DNA from: a virus | DNA: 64,000 bases | Reading direction: 5' to 3' (one strand) | IMG/VR virus record: IMGVR_UViG_3300036770_005354 | Location: 1 to 64,000 of that record | Part shown: positions 5,740-51,070 of the stretch, piece after piece | Layout: every line of letters starts with the position of its first letter | Numbering within the stretch: position 1 is the first letter of the stretch | Made by a program: the position numbers and the translations under genes | Notes under the pieces: generated by a model | Database searches by the model: none | What the model saw: the letters and a program-made list of their open reading frames with translations, nothing else | What the model was told of the DNA's origin: nothing

Positions 5740-5761
5740 ACAAAAAATAGTGAGGATCATC

Positions 5762-6391
5762 ATGACTACTTATATCAAGTACCCTAGCACATCTCATCTA
5801 CCATTCAGTCCCGGTATGCAGCGGGATGATACTCGTATATCTTCACTAAATAGCCTTGAAGGTCGTGAGGTCGTCATTACGGAGAAAATGGATGGAGAAA
5901 ATACCACCATGTATACAGATCATATTCATGCTAGGAGTGTTGATTCCCGTCATCATCCTAGTCGTGATTGGGTTAAAAATTTTTGGAATAGCATTCGATT
6001 GGATATACCAAGTAATTTTCGAATTTGCGGTGAAAATGTATATGCGAGGCACTCCGTAAGTTACGACAGTTTGGAAACGTATTTCTACGGTTTCAGCGTG
6101 TGGGATGGTGATCGTTGCTTGTCTTGGGACGATACTCTTGAGTTCTTTGAACTGTTGGGTGTCACTCCTGTACCAGTGATTTATCGTGGTGTTTTCGACG
6201 TCAAAACTGTAGAACATATCGCAAACAACTTTGATGTAGAAAATAAAGAAGGTTTTGTTGTTCGGATTGCTGAAGATTTCAGTTATAATCAATTTGACAC
6301 ACACGTTGCTAAATGGGTTCGTGCAGGACATGTGCAAACCGACAAGCATTGGATGCATAGTAAAATTATCCCCAATCAATTGAAAGTCTAA
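5762..6391 (+). CDS. RNA ligase (nucleotidyltransferase superfamily)
   Basis: ATG 5762 with GAGGA at 5752-5756 gives 209 residues. Motifs of covalent nucleotidyltransferases are in order: motif I EKMDGEN with the predicted adenylated Lys42, motif III RICGENVYARHS, motif IIIa YFYGFSVWD, motif IV EGFVVRI and motif V VAKWVR. It is a compact ligase without a long C-terminal domain, in the Rnl2/RNA_ligase group, expected to seal nicked or cleaved RNA using ATP. A second, Rnl1-like ligase follows immediately; together they suggest repair of host-cleaved tRNA. Expression is from the promoter at 5711. Confidence 0.88.
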   Translation: MTTYIKYPSTSHLPFSPGMQRDDTRISSLNSLEGREVVITEKMDGENTTMYTDHIHARSVDSRHHPSRDWVKNFWNSIRLDIPSNFRICGENVYARHSVSYDSLETYFYGFSVWDGDRCLSWDDTLEFFELLGVTPVPVIYRGVFDVKTVEHIANNFDVENKEGFVVRIAEDFSYNQFDTHVAKWVRAGHVQTDKHWMHSKIIPNQLKV

Positions 6392-6392
6392 A

Positions 6393-7310
6393 ATGTTTCG
6401 TGATGAATTGCGTGAATATGTACGGCAGAATTCCCAGTCTGTAAAGATGCGGGAATCTGCTATATATCCTAGTTTGTATGTGCTGAAGTACAACAAGAAG
6501 GTCTTTTACAAGAATTCCTGGGATCAATATCTGGAAGAATGTCGTGGTGCGGTCGTTGATCAGGATTTCAATCTGGTTGCTTATCCGTTTAAAAAAATTT
6601 ATAACTTCGGTATCGAAAGCCGTGCGCCTGCGATTGATGTTGATACCAAGGTAACTGCTTTCCGTAAAATTAACGGATTTATGGCGTCCGTTACCTGGTA
6701 TCGTGGTGATTTGTTGATCAGCACTACTGGTTCATTGGATAGTGATTATGTTAACATGGTTCGTAAAATGATCCGTGAACAATATAATTACGAAGATTGG
6801 TGTTTGGTTTTCAGCCGCAGCGATATGCAGGGTGTGACCTTTATGTTTGAATGTTGCCATGTAGATGATCCGCACATTGTTCCTGAACGTCCTGGCATGT
6901 ATTTGTTGGGTTTTCGGGAAAATGTGTGGGGTTCTCGGGTACAGTATGATAGTTTTACTCTGCGTGATCTAGCGAAAGAGTTGGGTTGTTATACGCCTGA
7001 ATGTACTGTTACCAATATGGGTAGAATTCAAGAGTTGACTAAGGAGTGTCGTCACGAAGGTTATGTTGTATACACCGATGATGGTCGGTCTACCAAGATC
7101 AAGAGCCCGTATTACTTGGTAAACAAGTGGGTAGCGAGAAACCCAAATACTGACAAGCTAGTGGACTTAAATAGGGACATCAAGCGTAGCATTGATGAAG
7201 AATATCATGGGTTAATTGACTACATTCGTGAAAACATTGTAGAATATACTGATATGACCGAACAACAACGGTTGGAGTGGGTTAGAACCTATATGGAGAA
7301 TACTGTATGA
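6393..7310 (+). CDS. T4 Rnl1-like RNA ligase
   Basis: 305 residues with the order of T4 RNA ligase 1: EECRGAVVDQDFNLVAYPFKK upstream, motif I RKINGF with predicted adenylated Lys92, motif III FMFECCHVDDPHIV, motif IV HEGYVVYTDDG and motif V STKIKSPYYLVNKW. The motif I variant KxNG replaces the commoner KxDG. Rnl1 joins 3'-OH and 5'-phosphate RNA ends, classically restoring tRNA cut by host anticodon nucleases. No polynucleotide kinase partner is in this window. The stop overlaps the next gene as ATGA, linking it to the Ala-rich array. Confidence 0.9.
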   Translation: MFRDELREYVRQNSQSVKMRESAIYPSLYVLKYNKKVFYKNSWDQYLEECRGAVVDQDFNLVAYPFKKIYNFGIESRAPAIDVDTKVTAFRKINGFMASVTWYRGDLLISTTGSLDSDYVNMVRKMIREQYNYEDWCLVFSRSDMQGVTFMFECCHVDDPHIVPERPGMYLLGFRENVWGSRVQYDSFTLRDLAKELGCYTPECTVTNMGRIQELTKECRHEGYVVYTDDGRSTKIKSPYYLVNKWVARNPNTDKLVDLNRDIKRSIDEEYHGLIDYIRENIVEYTDMTEQQRLEWVRTYMENTV

Positions 7311-7696
7311 ACGCATGGAGTCGTTTGCCTAATGCCTGTCATATTGATAGGGTACTTGAGTCTGTAAAGTCGCATACTGAAATTTGGGATGCGATTTGGG
7401 ATGAGGCTAGGCTTTCGTCTAGGTATGCGGCTTTGGGTGCGGCTCGGCTTTCGGATAGGTATGCGGCTAGGTATGCGGCTTTGGGTGCGGCTTTGGGTGC
7501 GGCTAGGTATGCGGCTTGGAATGCGGCTTGGGGTGCGATAACAGCCCTAATCGCATATGATGACGCTAGCAAATATCTATACATACCCAGCGATCAACTA
7601 CGTGTTTGGGCTATTCTTAGTGAAGACCCGGCATCGGTTTTATTACTACCAGCAGTGGTTGCTTTTGAACGAATTCGTGAATTGGAGTGTGTATGA
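7307..7696 (+). CDS. Ala-rich tetrapeptide-repeat paralogue 1
   Basis: First of five tandem paralogues (129 aa). An N-terminal segment (NAWSRLPNACHIDRVLESVKSH) and a C-terminal segment (ALIAYDDASKYL, then LRVWAILSEDPAS and AFERIRELE) flank a core of tetrapeptides of the form [R/L/W]-[Y/G/N]-A-A, encoded by 12-nt repeats with many GCG codons. Such cores are expected to be helical. Function is unknown. The start overlaps the RNA ligase stop (ATGA), so the array is translationally coupled to the ligases. Confidence 0.85.
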   Translation: MNAWSRLPNACHIDRVLESVKSHTEIWDAIWDEARLSSRYAALGAARLSDRYAARYAALGAALGAARYAAWNAAWGAITALIAYDDASKYLYIPSDQLRVWAILSEDPASVLLLPAVVAFERIRELECV

Positions 7697-8091
7697 ATGC
7701 ATGGAGTCATTTACCAAATGCCCATCATATTGATCGGGTACTTGAGTCAGCGAAATCGCATCCTGAAATTTGGGGTGCGACTTGGGATAAGGCTTGGGAT
7801 GCGGCTACAAATGCGGCCACAAATGCGGCTAGGGATACAGATCATAATGAGGCTTGGGATGCGGCTTTGGGTGCTAGGCTTACGGCTCGGGGTGCGGATT
7901 GGCTTGCGGCTCGGGATGCGGCGTGGAATGCGATAATCGCCCTAATCGCATATGACGACGCCAGTAAATATCTAGACATGCCTAGTGATCATCTACGTAT
8001 CTGGGCTATTCTCAGTGAAATACCAGCAGCAATTCTATTGATTCCAGCAGTAATTGCTTTTGAACGAATTAATGAATTGGAGTGTGTATGA
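7693..8091 (+). CDS. Ala-rich tetrapeptide-repeat paralogue 2
   Basis: 132 residues with the same conserved ends as its neighbours. The core is shorter on perfect units and out of register in places (WDKAWDAATNAATNAARD, then HNEAWDAALGAR), showing repeat slippage. ATG 7693 overlaps the preceding stop as ATGA; the GTG six bases upstream is not needed. Function unknown. Confidence 0.85.
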   Translation: MNAWSHLPNAHHIDRVLESAKSHPEIWGATWDKAWDAATNAATNAARDTDHNEAWDAALGARLTARGADWLAARDAAWNAIIALIAYDDASKYLDMPSDHLRIWAILSEIPAAILLIPAVIAFERINELECV

Positions 8092-8477
8092 GTGCCTGGA
8101 GTAATTTGCCTAATGCCCATCATATTGATCGGGTAATTAAGTCAGTGAAATCACATCCTGAAATTTGGGATGCGGCTTGGCTTGTGGCTAGGAATACGGC
8201 TCCGAGTGCGGTGTGGGATGCGATTTGGCTTGCGGCACGGAATACGGCTCCGAGTGCGGCGTGGGATGCGATTTGGCTTGCGGCACGGAATGCGGCTCGG
8301 GGTGCGGCTTGGGGTCCGATAGCAGCCCTAATCGTATATGATGATTCCAGTAAATATCTAGACATGCCTGTCGAACAACTACGTGTTTGGGCTATACTTA
8401 GTGAAGACCCAGCAGCAGTTCTATTGATTCCAGCAGTGGTTGCTTTTGAACGAATTCGTGAATTAGAGTGTGTATGA
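8088..8477 (+). CDS. Ala-rich tetrapeptide-repeat paralogue 3
   Basis: 129 residues. The core contains a larger duplication: a 16-residue block beginning WDAIWLAARNTAPSA occurs twice in near-identical form at the DNA level, which points to recent unequal recombination. The N- and C-terminal segments match the other paralogues. Coupled to both neighbours by ATGA overlaps. Function unknown. Confidence 0.85.
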   Translation: MSAWSNLPNAHHIDRVIKSVKSHPEIWDAAWLVARNTAPSAVWDAIWLAARNTAPSAAWDAIWLAARNAARGAAWGPIAALIVYDDSSKYLDMPVEQLRVWAILSEDPAAVLLIPAVVAFERIRELECV

Positions 8478-8875
8478 ACGCATGGAGTCATTTACCAAAT
8501 GCCTGTCATATTGATAGGGTACTTGAGTCAGCGAAATCGCATCCTGAAATTTGGGATGCGGCTTTGAATACTAGACTTGCGGCTCATGGTGCGGCTTTGG
8601 ATGCGTCTAGGTTTGCGGCTTTGAATGCGTCTAGGGTTACGGCTTTGAATGCGTCTTGGGTTACGGCTTGGAATGTAGCTTGGGTTGCGGCTACGCTTGC
8701 GACTATGGATGCGACAGCAGCACTAATTGCATTTGATGATGCCAGTAAATACCTAGATATACCCAGTGATAAACTACGTGTTTTGGCCATTATCAGTGAA
8801 AACCCGGCAGCAATTCTATTGCTGCCAGCAGTGATTGCGTTTGAACGAATTAATAAATTGGAGAATGCTATATGA
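8474..8875 (+). CDS. Ala-rich tetrapeptide-repeat paralogue 4
   Basis: 133 residues. The core mixes Ala-rich units with Ser/Thr variants (LDASRFAALNASRVTALNAS). Its end (LATMDATAALI) is shared with paralogue 5, so these two are the closest pair. The frame begins at ATG 8474 within an ATGA overlap. Function unknown. Confidence 0.85.
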   Translation: MNAWSHLPNACHIDRVLESAKSHPEIWDAALNTRLAAHGAALDASRFAALNASRVTALNASWVTAWNVAWVAATLATMDATAALIAFDDASKYLDIPSDKLRVLAIISENPAAILLLPAVIAFERINKLENAI

Positions 8876-9273
8876 GTGTCTGGAGCCACTTACCAAATGC
8901 CTATCATATTGATCGGGTACTTGAGTCTGTAAAGTCACATCCTGAAATTTGGGATGCAGCTAGGGATACGGCTTGGAGTGCGGCTCATGGTGCGGCTTTG
9001 GATGCGGCACATAGTGCGGCTTTGGATGCGTCTAGAATTGCGGCTTTGGATGCGTCTAAGGTTGCGGCTTGGAATACAGCTTGGGGTGCGGCTAAGCTTG
9101 CGACTATGGATGCGACAGCAGCACTAATCGCATATGATGACGCCAGTAAATACCTAGATATACCCAGTGATAAACTACGTGTTTTGGCTATTCTCAGTGA
9201 AACCCCAGCGGCAGTTCTATTACTTCCAGCAGTGGTTGCTTTTGAACGAATTAATGAATCGGAGTTGGTATGA
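8872..9273 (+). CDS. Ala-rich tetrapeptide-repeat paralogue 5
   Basis: 133 residues; begins MSVWSHLPNAYHIDRV, has a regular four-residue core (WSAAHGAALDAAHSAALDAS) and the conserved LIAYDDASKYLD and PAVVAFERI end. Nearest relative of paralogue 4. Its stop overlaps the start of the zinc-binding protein at 9270. Function unknown. Confidence 0.85.
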   Translation: MSVWSHLPNAYHIDRVLESVKSHPEIWDAARDTAWSAAHGAALDAAHSAALDASRIAALDASKVAAWNTAWGAAKLATMDATAALIAYDDASKYLDIPSDKLRVLAILSETPAAVLLLPAVVAFERINESELV

Positions 9274-29703: not shown

Positions 29704-32700
29704 ATGACAACAAGAGCCCCATTATCGCAAGTTCTACAAGATCCAGGTTTAACCAATCCAACTGAAGGAGAAACCCTTTTTATTGTTGCAGATTCTGGAG
29801 TTGAACAAAAACTAACGGTTTCACGCGCCAGATTATTGTTAGATACAGTTGGTCCTGCTGGTCCACAAGGTATCCAAGGAAGTCAGGGAGTCCAAGGAGC
29901 ACAAGGGGTTCAAGGTCATCAAGGAGTTCAAGGCCATCAAGGAGTTCAAGGAGAAACTGGATCAAGTGGAGGACCGGGTTCACAGGGTGTTCAAGGGGCA
30001 CAAGGTGTTCAGGGAACACAAGGCGTACAAGGAGCACAAGGTGTTCAGGGAACATCGGGTGTACAAGGAACACAAGGCGTACAAGGAGCACAAGGTGTTC
30101 AAGGTTCTCAAGGTGTAGCTGGGGTACAAGGATCACAAGGTCCAACGGCTACAGTATTTCCAAATATTCAAGGTGGTTCGCAAGGCTCCATTCCAATACA
30201 AGTAGATACTGATGTAACTGCATTCATTAATATAGGTCCACAAAATTATATATTAAAATCAGAAGGTAATACTGCTACATGGGTGTCAACTTCTACGATT
30301 TTTGTTGGAAGAGCAGATAAATCAGACAAATCATTTATAACTTCTTCGGATAATATTTCAGAATATTATCCAACAATGGCTATTGGAATCAATGATTATG
30401 TAACCCCAGTCTCAGATTCTTCTTTAATATTTCAAAGCGATTCAAAAACATTATTAACACCCATATTAAAAGTAACAACTTCAACCAATGCAATAAGTAC
30501 TACTACTGGAGGATTAATTGTAACAGGTGGGGTTGGTATAGGCAAAGATATCCATATAGGTGGAGACATCTATAAAAATGGAGAGCTATACGTCGTAGGT
30601 GGTGGTTCCGGAACACAAGGTGCGCAAGGATTCCAAGGAACACAGGGGCATCAAGGACTTGAAGGAGCACAAGGTTTACCTGCCGAAACAGGAATACAAG
30701 GAGCGCAAGGCTTCCAAGGAGCACAAGGATTTCAAGGAACACAGGGTATAGGTGGTGGACCTGGATCAGATGGAATTCAAGGTGCGCAAGGTTTTCAAGG
30801 GGCGCAAGGATTTCGAGGTGCAACTGGCATTCAAGGGGATCAAGGTTTAGCAGGAATTCAAGGGGCACAAGGATTCCAAGGTACACAAGGGGCTGGGGGA
30901 CAAGGACCACAGGGCGCACAAGGTTTAGAAGGTTTTCAGGGACATCAAGGATTCCAAGGAAATCAAGGATCACAGGGAGAATTAGGATTTACTGGTATTC
31001 AAGGCGCACAAGGATTCCAAGGAAATCAAGGTCATCAGGGATTTCAGGGAACACAAGGTGTAGAAGGTATTCAAGGAGCGCAAGGATTCCAAGGACATCA
31101 GGGATTCCAAGGAGCACAAGGAATAGAAGGCATTCAAGGGGCGCAAGGATTCCAAGGAAATCAAGGCCACCAAGGATTCCAAGGAACACAAGGTGCTGGA
31201 GGCGAAGGACCACAAGGCGCACAAGGAGTAGATGGAGTTCAAGGAGCACAAGGATTCCAAGGACATCAAGGTCATCAGGGTTTCCAAGGAACACAAGGAC
31301 ATGATGGTATTCAAGGAGCACAAGGATTCCAAGGAGCACAGGGATTCCAAGGAGCACAAGGATTCCAAGGTCATGATGGAATCCAAGGAGCACAAGGATT
31401 CCAAGGAACACAGGGCGCTGGAGGACAGGGAGCGCAAGGATTCCAAGGACATCAAGGTTTCCAAGGGACACAAGGATTCCAAGGACATCAAGGTTTTCAA
31501 GGACATCAAGGTTTTCAAGGACATCAAGGTTTCCAAGGGGCGCAAGGATTTCAAGGAAACCAAGGCTTCCAAGGACACCAAGGCTTCCAAGGACATGATG
31601 GAATTCAAGGAGCACAAGGATTTCAAGGAACTCAGGGTGCTGGGGGCGATGGGCCACAAGGCGCACAAGGTTTTCAAGGTCACCAAGGATTCCAAGGTCA
31701 CCAAGGTTTTCAAGGAACTCAGGGTCATCAAGGTTTCCAAGGTCATCAAGGTTTCCAAGGAGCACAAGGACTTAGAGGTGCACCCGGGTTACAAGGTGCT
31801 CAAGGTTTTAATGGCGTACAAGGATCACAAGGTTTTCAAGGAAATCAAGGACATCAGGGATTCCAAGGTGCACAGGGATTCCAAGGAACACAAGGTGCAC
31901 CGAGCGAAGGAGGATTCCAAGGTGCACAGGGATTCCAAGGACATCAAGGATTCCAAGGAAATCAGGGTTTCCAAGGAGCACAAGGATTCCAAGGAACACA
32001 AGGTGCTGGTGGCGAAGGCCCACAAGGCGCACAGGGATTCCAGGGACACCAAGGTTTCCAAGGAAATCAAGGACATCAGGGTTTTCAAGGATCAACTGGA
32101 ATTCAAGGACAACAAGGTATATTAGGAGGAGATGGTCCACCAGGATTACAAGGTGCACAGGGTTCACGTGGATTACCAGGATTTCAAGGAAGTCAAGGAG
32201 CACAAGGATTCCAAGGAACTCAAGGTGATAGTGGGGTAGGCGTTCAAGGTGTTCAGGGTGCAGAAGGGTTCCAAGGAAGTCAAGGAGCACAAGGATTCCA
32301 AGGAGCCGAAGGTAGTCAAGGCCCATCGGGATCAGGGGCACAAGGTCCAGCAGGTTTTCAAGGAAGTCAGGGCGCAGAGGGACTTCAAGGAGCACAAGGC
32401 CCACGTGGATTTCAGGGAAATCAAGGTCATCAAGGATTCCAAGGAAATCAAGGTCATCAAGGATTTCAGGGTGATCGTGGGGCACAAGGATTCCAGGGAC
32501 ATCAAGGATTCCAAGGAAATCAAGGATTCCAAGGGGCACAGGGTCATCAAGGATTTAGAGGACCACAAGGATTACAAGGTCCAGAAGGATTGCAAGGAAG
32601 CCAAGGACATCAAGGATTCCAAGGACGACAGGGACATCAAGGGTTTCAAGGAGCAACCGGCGCAGAAGGTATCCAAGGAGCACAAGGGTTCACTGGTTCT

Positions 32701-33240
32701 GGTTCACCAGGTTCCCCAGGTTCCCAAGGAGCACAGGGATTCCAAGGAGCACAAGGATTCCAAGGACCATCAGGTGCACAAGGACCAAACGGCGCACCAG
32801 GAATACCAGGAACCGCTGGTTCATCTGGACAAGTATTATATAATAGCGGTGGAACTGTAACAAGTTCTTCAAATTTACAATTCAATGGATCAGACCTATA
32901 TGCATCAGGTGAGATTCGAGCAGGTGGAGACATAGTTGCATATTATTCATCAGATAAGAGATTAAAAACCAATATAGAAACAATTTCAAATGCAAAAGAA
33001 AAAATAAAACAAATTTCCGGAATTTTATATAATTGGAATCAGTATGCTGTAAATAAAGATACAAGAACTAGGCAAGCAGGTGTAATTGCCCAAGAAATAG
33101 TTAATGTGTTGCCAGAAGCAGTTATTACAAGAACTGATGGTTACTTAGCAGTTAATTATGAGCAAATAATACCTTTATTAATAGAAGCATTAAAAACATT
33201 AATAAATGAAGTTGAAAATTTAAAAAATAAATCGGAGTAA
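29704..33240 (+). CDS. Collagen-like tail fibre with S74 intramolecular chaperone
   Basis: 1178 residues in five parts: an N-terminal head (LFIVADSGVEQKLTVSRARLLL); a first G-x-y collagen block (about residues 53-150); a globular insert with VTGGVGIGKDIHIGGDIYKNG; a long collagen block (about 303-1040) dominated by GFQGxQG triplets; and a C-terminal Peptidase_S74 domain. SSDKRLKTNIE holds the Ser1083/Lys1085 pair at which S74 chaperones self-cleave after guiding trimerisation. Gln replaces the usual Pro in the Y position of most triplets. Expected to form a trimeric host-contact fibre. Late promoter at 29669. Confidence 0.92.
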   Translation: MTTRAPLSQVLQDPGLTNPTEGETLFIVADSGVEQKLTVSRARLLLDTVGPAGPQGIQGSQGVQGAQGVQGHQGVQGHQGVQGETGSSGGPGSQGVQGAQGVQGTQGVQGAQGVQGTSGVQGTQGVQGAQGVQGSQGVAGVQGSQGPTATVFPNIQGGSQGSIPIQVDTDVTAFINIGPQNYILKSEGNTATWVSTSTIFVGRADKSDKSFITSSDNISEYYPTMAIGINDYVTPVSDSSLIFQSDSKTLLTPILKVTTSTNAISTTTGGLIVTGGVGIGKDIHIGGDIYKNGELYVVGGGSGTQGAQGFQGTQGHQGLEGAQGLPAETGIQGAQGFQGAQGFQGTQGIGGGPGSDGIQGAQGFQGAQGFRGATGIQGDQGLAGIQGAQGFQGTQGAGGQGPQGAQGLEGFQGHQGFQGNQGSQGELGFTGIQGAQGFQGNQGHQGFQGTQGVEGIQGAQGFQGHQGFQGAQGIEGIQGAQGFQGNQGHQGFQGTQGAGGEGPQGAQGVDGVQGAQGFQGHQGHQGFQGTQGHDGIQGAQGFQGAQGFQGAQGFQGHDGIQGAQGFQGTQGAGGQGAQGFQGHQGFQGTQGFQGHQGFQGHQGFQGHQGFQGAQGFQGNQGFQGHQGFQGHDGIQGAQGFQGTQGAGGDGPQGAQGFQGHQGFQGHQGFQGTQGHQGFQGHQGFQGAQGLRGAPGLQGAQGFNGVQGSQGFQGNQGHQGFQGAQGFQGTQGAPSEGGFQGAQGFQGHQGFQGNQGFQGAQGFQGTQGAGGEGPQGAQGFQGHQGFQGNQGHQGFQGSTGIQGQQGILGGDGPPGLQGAQGSRGLPGFQGSQGAQGFQGTQGDSGVGVQGVQGAEGFQGSQGAQGFQGAEGSQGPSGSGAQGPAGFQGSQGAEGLQGAQGPRGFQGNQGHQGFQGNQGHQGFQGDRGAQGFQGHQGFQGNQGFQGAQGHQGFRGPQGLQGPEGLQGSQGHQGFQGRQGHQGFQGATGAEGIQGAQGFTGSGSPGSPGSQGAQGFQGAQGFQGPSGAQGPNGAPGIPGTAGSSGQVLYNSGGTVTSSSNLQFNGSDLYASGEIRAGGDIVAYYSSDKRLKTNIETISNAKEKIKQISGILYNWNQYAVNKDTRTRQAGVIAQEIVNVLPEAVITRTDGYLAVNYEQIIPLLIEALKTLINEVENLKNKSE
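29863..32830 (+). repeat. Collagen triplet-coding repeat region
   Basis: Two blocks (about 29863-30150 and 30610-32830) of near-identical 18-nt or multiple-of-9 units such as GGATTCCAAGGAACACAA encode Gly-Phe-Gln-Gly-x-Gln. Antisense and +1 frames stay open across it, giving spurious ORFs. Such DNA is prone to length change by slippage. Confidence 0.9.
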
Positions 33241-49741: not shown

Positions 49742-51070
49742 ATGAAAAATAATCAATCTTTAAAAAGCAGAAAATGCCCAGAATGTGGCGGTCCATTATT
49801 TTCAGAGTCAGTAATGATGGAAAAAAAGGATGCATGTTATTATAAAGTAAAAAGTAGATATAAAGTGTGGCCAAGCGCATATGCTTGTGTTCCAGAAGAA
49901 ACATCAAAAGCGTTAACTAAAGAAGGATGGAAAAAAGTAGACGAATTAAATATAGGCGATAACATTTTAACTTATAATATGCAAAAAGATGTTATGGAAT
50001 TTAAACCAATAACAAATTTGCATCGTTACAAAAATGCCGAAACCAATGTAATTAGAAGCGGTAATACTGGATTTGTTTTTGAATGTACCCCGAATCATAA
50101 ATGGGTAATAAAATTTCCTGAACAAAAAACTTCTAAAATAGGAAAATATGAAAAAACTAATAATATGGCATTATTAGAATCTACTGACATGATTGATTTC
50201 AAGCATAAAAAACATTTAGTAGTTACTGCACCATATGAAGGTGGGGAATCGATACGAAAAGATAAAATATTTAAATATGGTGATAATTGGATAAAATATA
50301 TTTTAGATATATCACCAGAACAACGTCAAAGTTGGTTATTTAGCGCAATTGTTTATGATGGAAACCAATGTAAAGCTAGACGTCTTACTGAAAATAATAA
50401 CAGTATAAGTAATCTGGATTGGGAATATAGTGGAAATTATGGCAAGCAATCTTTTAATTTTAAGCAAAAAGATGTAGAACATCGTAATGCTTTTATTTTA
50501 GCTGCATTTTTAAACGGTGGAACTGTTACTTGGAAAGAATATTATAATCATGAGATTTATTCATGTTATTATGTAAGCAATAAAAGATATAAAAATTTAA
50601 CTAACTTCAAGATTATTAAAGAAAATAAAACTGACGTATGGTGCCCAGAAACAGAAAATGGTACTTGGGTAATGATGCAAGAAACTGATGGATGTGGAAT
50701 TATTACAATTACTGGAAATAGTGGAGCATTAGTTAAATGCAGGAAAAAAGGATCTAAAAACTGGGGAGCTAAAAAAGAAAATATGAACTACACTAATATA
50801 CAAGAAAATGAAACAGTTGATCAAGAAGCTCTTGATAAAAAGAATCTAAATTTTATTAAAAAATTAGCTGGTGCAGATTATAAACCCGATAATACTTTAT
50901 CAGATTCTGATAAACAACAAATGTTAGCTACAGCTTTGCAACAACCTGAAATGACGGCAGATCCAAAAAATATTATAAAGTTTGTACTAAGTATTGGTTA
51001 CGATATTGAATCAGTTTTAGCTTCTATACCTCCGGGAATGGATTTATCTAAAGACTTGCCAAAAAAATAA
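49742..51070 (+). CDS. Cys-rich conserved virion-region protein carrying an intein
   Basis: 442 residues before splicing. The N-extein (1-48) has CPECGG and KDACYYKVKSRYKVWPSAYA; the C-extein resumes at Ser327 with SGALVKCRKKGSKNWG. Joined, these give the YKVWPSAYA-SGALVKCRK core of a widespread phage protein, so the intein removes itself to restore it. The C-terminal part of the extein is helical (LDKKNLNFIKKLAGADY, ALQQPEMTADPKN). AAGGA ribosome-binding site. Confidence 0.88.
   Translation: MKNNQSLKSRKCPECGGPLFSESVMMEKKDACYYKVKSRYKVWPSAYACVPEETSKALTKEGWKKVDELNIGDNILTYNMQKDVMEFKPITNLHRYKNAETNVIRSGNTGFVFECTPNHKWVIKFPEQKTSKIGKYEKTNNMALLESTDMIDFKHKKHLVVTAPYEGGESIRKDKIFKYGDNWIKYILDISPEQRQSWLFSAIVYDGNQCKARRLTENNNSISNLDWEYSGNYGKQSFNFKQKDVEHRNAFILAAFLNGGTVTWKEYYNHEIYSCYYVSNKRYKNLTNFKIIKENKTDVWCPETENGTWVMMQETDGCGIITITGNSGALVKCRKKGSKNWGAKKENMNYTNIQENETVDQEALDKKNLNFIKKLAGADYKPDNTLSDSDKQQMLATALQQPEMTADPKNIIKFVLSIGYDIESVLASIPPGMDLSKDLPKK
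49886..50719 (+). mobile_element. Intein inside the Cys-rich protein (278 aa)
   Basis: Runs from Cys49 (block A: CVPEETSKALTKEGWKKVDE, LNIGDNILTYN) through block B (CTPNHKW, with Thr116 and His119) to block F/G (VWCPETENGTWV, GIITITGN), ending at Asn326 with Ser327 as +1. The penultimate residue is Gly, not the usual His. A segment of about 150 residues between blocks B and F may be a degenerate or atypical endonuclease domain; LAGLIDADG motifs are not visible. Confidence 0.88.

Follow-up and report, generated by a model that had tools for sequence, protein, structure and literature searches.

What might five consecutive viral genes do whose products share constant ends but differ in an alanine-rich core, and how do such cores change? 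The question is raised by a locus of an uncultured bacterial virus (IMG/VR record IMGVR_UViG_3300036770_005354), whose record comprises 75.8 kb and whose positions 1-64,000, hereafter referred to as the window, form the whole stretch of DNA analyzed here. A preliminary description of this locus took the combination of conserved ends and a slippage-prone core to suggest a helical rod that is varied in length or surface.

Results

Five coupled genes with constant ends and a tetrad-based core

The five genes (Table 1) are coupled by an ATGA overlap at each junction, as described before, and comprise 129-133 codons each. They were also thought to follow two RNA ligase genes by such overlaps, which is correct for the ligase gene ending at position 7310, whereas the two ligase genes do not overlap each other (6391/6393). 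Antisense open reading frames over the array were attributed to its codon composition and set aside.

Table 1. Paralogous genes of the array and adjacent genes in the window.
Feature	Coordinates	Strand	Core	Remarks	Basis
Paralog 1, 129 aa	7307..7696	+	7388-7543		ORF, alignment
Paralog 2, 132 aa	7693..8091	+	7774-7938		ORF, alignment
Paralog 3, 129 aa	8088..8477	+	8169-8324	48-nt tandem duplication, 8166-8320	ORF, alignment
Paralog 4, 133 aa	8474..8875	+	8555-8719		ORF, alignment
Paralog 5, 133 aa	8872..9273	+	8953-9120		ORF, alignment; AlphaFold2 model m20bc3a89c616
T4 Rnl1-like RNA ligase (phrog_562)	6393..7310	+		Immediately 5' of paralog 1, ATGA overlap	
Second RNA ligase (PF09414)	5753..6391	+		Neighborhood gene, outside the paralog family	
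Partner gene 3' of the array, 118 aa	9270..9626	+		Cys-rich N-terminus and KRAEIRR...DRIADLLEEAA motif; ATGA overlap with paralog 5	

The constant ends of the paralogs comprise ~27 residues on the N-terminal and ~47 residues on the C-terminal side. All five proteins contain the N-terminal motif WSxLPNAxHIDRV, and the C-terminal motif LIAYDDASKYL is kept overall, with the slight variants LIVYDDSSKYL and LIAFDDASKYL in paralogs 3 and 4, respectively. Between these ends lies an alanine-rich run of (W/R)(D/N/G/S)AA tetrads, which is 52-56 residues long and contains 35-41% alanine. Across the whole family, the agreement of alanine positions at a lag of four residues reaches 0.80, compared with 0.59 in shuffled sequences, which corresponds to a four-residue period; at the two remaining places of the tetrad, R/W and D/G/N/S stand out. 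The contrast between GC-rich units and an AT-rich genome is borne out by a G+C content of 53-64% in the cores, as opposed to 40-43% in the ends and 33% in the window as a whole. The 48-nt duplication reported for paralog 3 is likewise present, in 3.2 copies, and a comparable repeat that had escaped notice is found in paralog 1 (7419-7537).

An undescribed family in environmental viruses

Three scans of IMG/VR retrieved 109 distinct full-length relatives after the removal of identical copies. When four members and one C-terminal end were compared with 50,697 records of cultured phages, tblastn returned no match even at an E-value of 10, although low-complexity masking may hide some; the same collection yielded 635 matching records for the neighboring ligase. 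Two scans of GTDB species genomes, which use exact peptide patterns, retrieved no relative. Neither Pfam (searched with the window paralogs) nor NCBIfam (with the members tested) contained a family scoring above its curated cut-off, the PADLOC profiles of anti-phage defense systems gave no match to five members at an E-value of 0.1, and a search of the literature for the family, its peptides or its description revealed nothing relevant. Three PHROG families of unknown function, 8332, 18326 and 15773, matched the core, with E-values of ~1e-6 to 1e-14 for PHROG 8332. However, this match does not extend over the whole protein, as it aligns residues ~21-105, essentially the core, with positions ~147-239 of the 248 positions in the profile, and the C-terminal end by itself gave no PHROG hit. 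No known enzymatic family thus covered the full protein in the Pfam, NCBIfam and PHROG searches. Judging from these comparisons, the family belongs to none described and occurs in many environmental viruses. The DNA polymerase of the window record shows at best 48% identity to a counterpart from a cultured phage.

The number of copies per contig ranges from one to ~25, with one to five in most cases; the relative L001/L026, for instance, has three copies, compared with five in the window. At least 12 distinct members are present on the contig of L114/L148, and a single 103-kb contig (L053/L058) carries ~25 copies in three arrays with intact reading frames. Several cores on this contig and those of some relatives of L053 and L071 lack the tetrad pattern, while the ends persist. 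Many matches stop at contig edges, as expected if the copies break assemblies, so that these numbers may be underestimates. The first copy in L001 (942-1337) lacks the usual WSxLPNA start and appears to have a frame-shifted N-terminus (VIYQMPNHID), which may reflect a frameshift or a sequencing error.

Cores change by whole 12-nt units

Comparisons between close relatives strongly support the proposal of a slippage-prone core between conserved ends, since the ends are identical or nearly so in pairs whose cores differ by 36 or 12 nt. The two relatives L012 and L013, which come from different samples, do not show a single nucleotide difference in their ends, yet the core of L013 is longer by 36 nt, and the several substitutions that distinguish the two cores are all amino-acid-changing. 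A second pair, L009 and L010 (with the longer versions L046 and L047), is 99.8% identical over 8.3 kb and differs there by a single 12-nt unit. Cores thus differ between relatives rather than being identical in all copies. Copy number varies as well, with four copies in L046 and two in L063 between flanks that are 99-100% identical, a difference that may also result from assembly collapse. Among the core pairs of the L114/L148 contig whose longest shared block spans at least 24 nt, all 39 keep it in 12-nt register, and 34 of them show it at a shifted position. In line with this unit structure, core lengths fall into one residue class modulo 4 in 45 of 70 members (p ~7e-13), a value that does not represent an independent-sample test, because the members are related. 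Taken together, the core grows, shrinks and re-assorts by whole 12-nt units while the reading frame is kept. The window cores share little with each other, and their array is therefore probably older. In one pair, formed by window paralog 4 and L001, the core is better kept than the ends (97% versus 89% conserved).

The regular-core lineages mainly use one Ala-Ala codon pair each, whereas their ends contain ordinary codon mixtures. The pair GCGGCT is found in the window and many relatives, and others use GCTGCT (L054), GCAGCA (L057), GCCGCC (L017), GCGGCA (L085) or GCTGCG (L065). Accordingly, GCG accounts for 51 of the 99 alanine codons in the window cores, but for only 23 of 221 in the other genes sampled. 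The combination of lineage-specific codon pairs with a common tetrad indicates that the units were amplified separately in each lineage, with the protein pattern being kept. Since the codon pair differs between lineages, constraint on one fixed DNA motif can be ruled out.

Selection on ends and units

The ends of the five paralogs evolve under purifying selection, with a pooled pN of 0.095, a pS of 0.351 and a pN/pS ratio of 0.27. A tree of the family ends was set aside, because the ends are partly misregistered. Across 30 window units, the variable bases cluster at positions 1 and 2 of two codons, and the T that follows and GCGGC are invariant. At these positions of the two variable codons, the units differ by 0.66, compared with 0.18 at the third bases of the alanine codons, and pN/pS over all four codons is 1.31. 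These values have to be read with the recent common ancestry of the units in mind, and with the presence of Ala-Ala as the criterion by which they were picked. Across the family, piN at tetrad positions 1-2 was compared with piS at the alanine third bases in 18 groups and then in nine further ones; it was higher in all 18 and in eight of the nine (26 of 27 in all), the order being reversed in L125. Of these groups, L058 shares a contig with L053 and hence does not count as independent, and relatedness is possible for some others. When all four codons of the unit are included, about half of the groups show a pN/pS of less than 1, with 0.47 in L053.

As a control, we used a collagen-like G-X-Q repeat in the window, which was conditioned in a similar way. 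Here, the corresponding difference is 0.13, much smaller than the 0.46 (interval 0.34 to 0.57) of the tetrad units and with an interval that includes zero (-0.01 to 0.32), and pN/pS is 0.32, as opposed to 1.31. Together, these comparisons point to, but do not prove, diversifying selection that acts on two of the four tetrad residues. The control repeat belongs to a 1178-residue protein (29704-33240) with a C-terminal Peptidase_S74 chaperone domain, which is probably a tail fiber.

Predicted structure

With 23 sequences, AlphaFold2 returned a single long helix of low confidence (pLDDT 65). By contrast, an alignment of 71 sequences gave a compact domain of eight helices (pLDDT 90, pTM 0.86), with three of the five models scoring 87 or higher. 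The rod envisaged earlier is thus retained in its helical character, which is common to both runs, but not in its shape, as the better-supported model is compact; the suggestion of a varied surface finds indirect support in the unit statistics. The exact topology is uncertain, because alanine-rich repeats can mislead AlphaFold and the two runs disagree on the core. Structure searches with the model yielded best values of E 4.6 (Foldseek), Z 2.5 (VIA-align) and E 0.13 with a TM-score of 0.45 (BFVD), the last for an uncharacterized phage protein, and a profile search of PDB sequences gave no match below an E-value of 0.26. As far as the predicted model can tell, no solved structure convincingly resembles it, and the missing match does not demonstrate a new fold. 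Over all searches (Pfam, NCBIfam, PHROG, PADLOC, PDB and structure databases), no family or fold match named a function for any member.

Genomic neighborhood

The order of an Rnl1-like ligase followed by the family recurs in ~18 contigs of related lineages, making the ligase a conserved neighbor in one set of lineages only; in most others, the family occurs with no ligase nearby. The closest relative of the ligase in a cultured phage is that of Acidovorax phage ACP17 (45% identity), and the family is absent at that place. Other neighbors include NAMPT-like and NMNAT-NUDIX genes (L062), a NAMPT-like gene (L085), a DNA ligase and, in various lineages, a kinase-like AAA_33 protein or HD_4. RNA ligases and the AAA_33 kinase-like, HD_4, NAMPT-like and NMNAT-NUDIX proteins are of the kind used by phages to undo defense damage. 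Overall, however, the neighborhoods are mixed, and some contain only small unknown genes.

A small protein with the motif KRAEIRR...DRIADLLEEAA and changing N-termini is encoded downstream of the family, overlapping the last copy by 4 nt in the window, L030, L036 and L041 and lying less than 800 nt away in others. In L065-L067 (8697-9383), it shares a reading frame with a member of the family. The motif is also present in cultured phages of Caulobacter, Rhodobacter, Myxococcus and Limnohabitans. As a lead to a functional linkage, this downstream partner is at least as good as the ligase. A very common family of small phage proteins, represented in the window at positions 71-277 and at many other loci, often lies beside the alanine-rich family (127 members at 40 loci, as obtained by clustering that is possibly chained).

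Discussion

Conserved caps around a remade middle are, in viral proteins, commonly the result of a conflict with a changing host factor, and for this reason we favor a role in counter-defense or host take-over. The family may comprise small, acidic, helical accessory binding proteins that diversify and most likely serve one of these purposes, a reading whose chance of being correct we place just short of even. The constant caps would hold a helical middle of tetrads, in which two alanines are mostly fixed and two residues, mostly W/R and D/N/G/S, vary. New cores could then arise through slippage during replication and through recombination, unequal or ectopic, of units that match each other, and selection may retain those with new putative surfaces that bind a fast-changing host partner. 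Amplification of the gene could provide a second adaptive route. Neighbors of the kind that undo defense damage agree with this reading, whereas the mixed composition of the neighborhoods, the lack of a family or fold match that names a function, the whole-unit pN/pS values below 1, the reversed order in L125, the well-kept core of window paralog 4 and L001 and the possible assembly collapse in L046/L063 weigh against it. In its most far-reaching form, this reading would make the family a phage repertoire of repeat-built binders, whose putative surfaces are diversified against host defenses by 12-nt exchange within and between tandem copies in the absence of a dedicated enzyme, which is conceivable but doubtful.

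The main rivals to the counter-defense reading are a non-functional minisatellite and a part of the virion. Slippage of a 12-nt coding minisatellite in genes of little importance would produce variation without function, and both the amplification of an own unit in each lineage and the loss of the tetrad pattern from some cores of the L053 and L071 relatives, whose ends are kept, are what it would lead one to expect. Yet the purifying selection on the ends, the large arrays with intact frames, the retention of the protein tetrad despite lineage-specific codons and the excess of variation at amino-acid over silent positions all speak against it, and we consider it unlikely. The same excess is beyond the reach of neutral length change, as assumed for a helical spacer of the virion or a scaffold, a notion close to the rod of the preliminary description. 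Such a spacer would fit the alanine-rich, predicted helical sequence and the changes in length by whole units, but the better-supported model is not a rod, no recognized structural gene lies beside the family among the identified neighbors, and ~25 diverged copies on one contig would be unusual, making this role rather unlikely.

The genomic context could instead suggest a partner in an RNA-repair cassette that assists in repair and has RNA, tRNA or the ligase as its binding target. The direct succession of ligase and array in the window, with its ATGA overlap, and the recurrence of this order in the related contigs agree with this notion. Nevertheless, the link to RNA or tRNA is weak, because numerous relatives, including those of most other lineages, have no ligase nearby, and because the proteins are acidic, with a median charge of ~-6 in the family and a pI of 4.9-5.7 in the window; given also the ACP17 ligase locus, which lacks the family, a role in repair appears improbable. 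Finally, the concentration of the window variation at the first and second positions of two codons resembles the template-directed pattern of a diversity-generating retroelement, which would mutate the variable codons. However, the 75.8-kb record, possibly a fragment, contains no match to a reverse transcriptase (PF00078), the window has no second GCGGCT-N6-GCGGCT array on either strand that might serve as a template, and the cores differ by unit insertions, which are atypical of such elements, so that a retroelement is highly improbable.

As a diversifying protein family, the one described here nevertheless shares with phage diversity-generating retroelements a constant scaffold and a part that is hypervariable at certain codon positions, differing from them in its unit indels and in that no reverse transcriptase or template was detected in the record or window, respectively. 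TAL effectors similarly combine constant ends with near-identical repeats that have few variable residues and are re-assorted by recombination. However, their repeats comprise ~34 residues with a two-residue code, whereas the unit of the family has four residues and is unrelated in sequence and size, with no DNA-reading code implied. For the mode of amplification, a likeness is found in phage T4, which amplifies the inhibitor gene tifA under ToxIN pressure, a gene-accordion case of tandem, recombination-driven amplification of a small accessory gene with rapid changes in copy number (PMC9391042). While the T4 copies are identical and arose under laboratory selection (PMC9391042), those of the family are diverged and have a core built of units. 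By analogy, tifA may provide a precedent for the tandem amplification of a counter-defense gene (PMC9391042).

If the repertoire reading is correct, phages would own diversifying proteins that need only repeat exchange, rather than a reverse transcriptase or another dedicated enzyme, and the family would represent a library of binding proteins made by nature, whose presence marks host targets yet to be discovered. Whatever its role, it is worth annotating, as it is undescribed, occurs in many environmental phages, has a confidently predicted fold and often has copies at contig edges. In one contig, it takes up about one tenth of the sequence.

Elsewhere in the window (49742-51070), a Hint-like (intein-type) stretch, whose Pfam Hint match lies under the cut-off and whose best PHROG stretch spans only the N-terminal flank, appears to interrupt a small, conserved phage protein (KVWPSAYA/SGALVKCRKKG).
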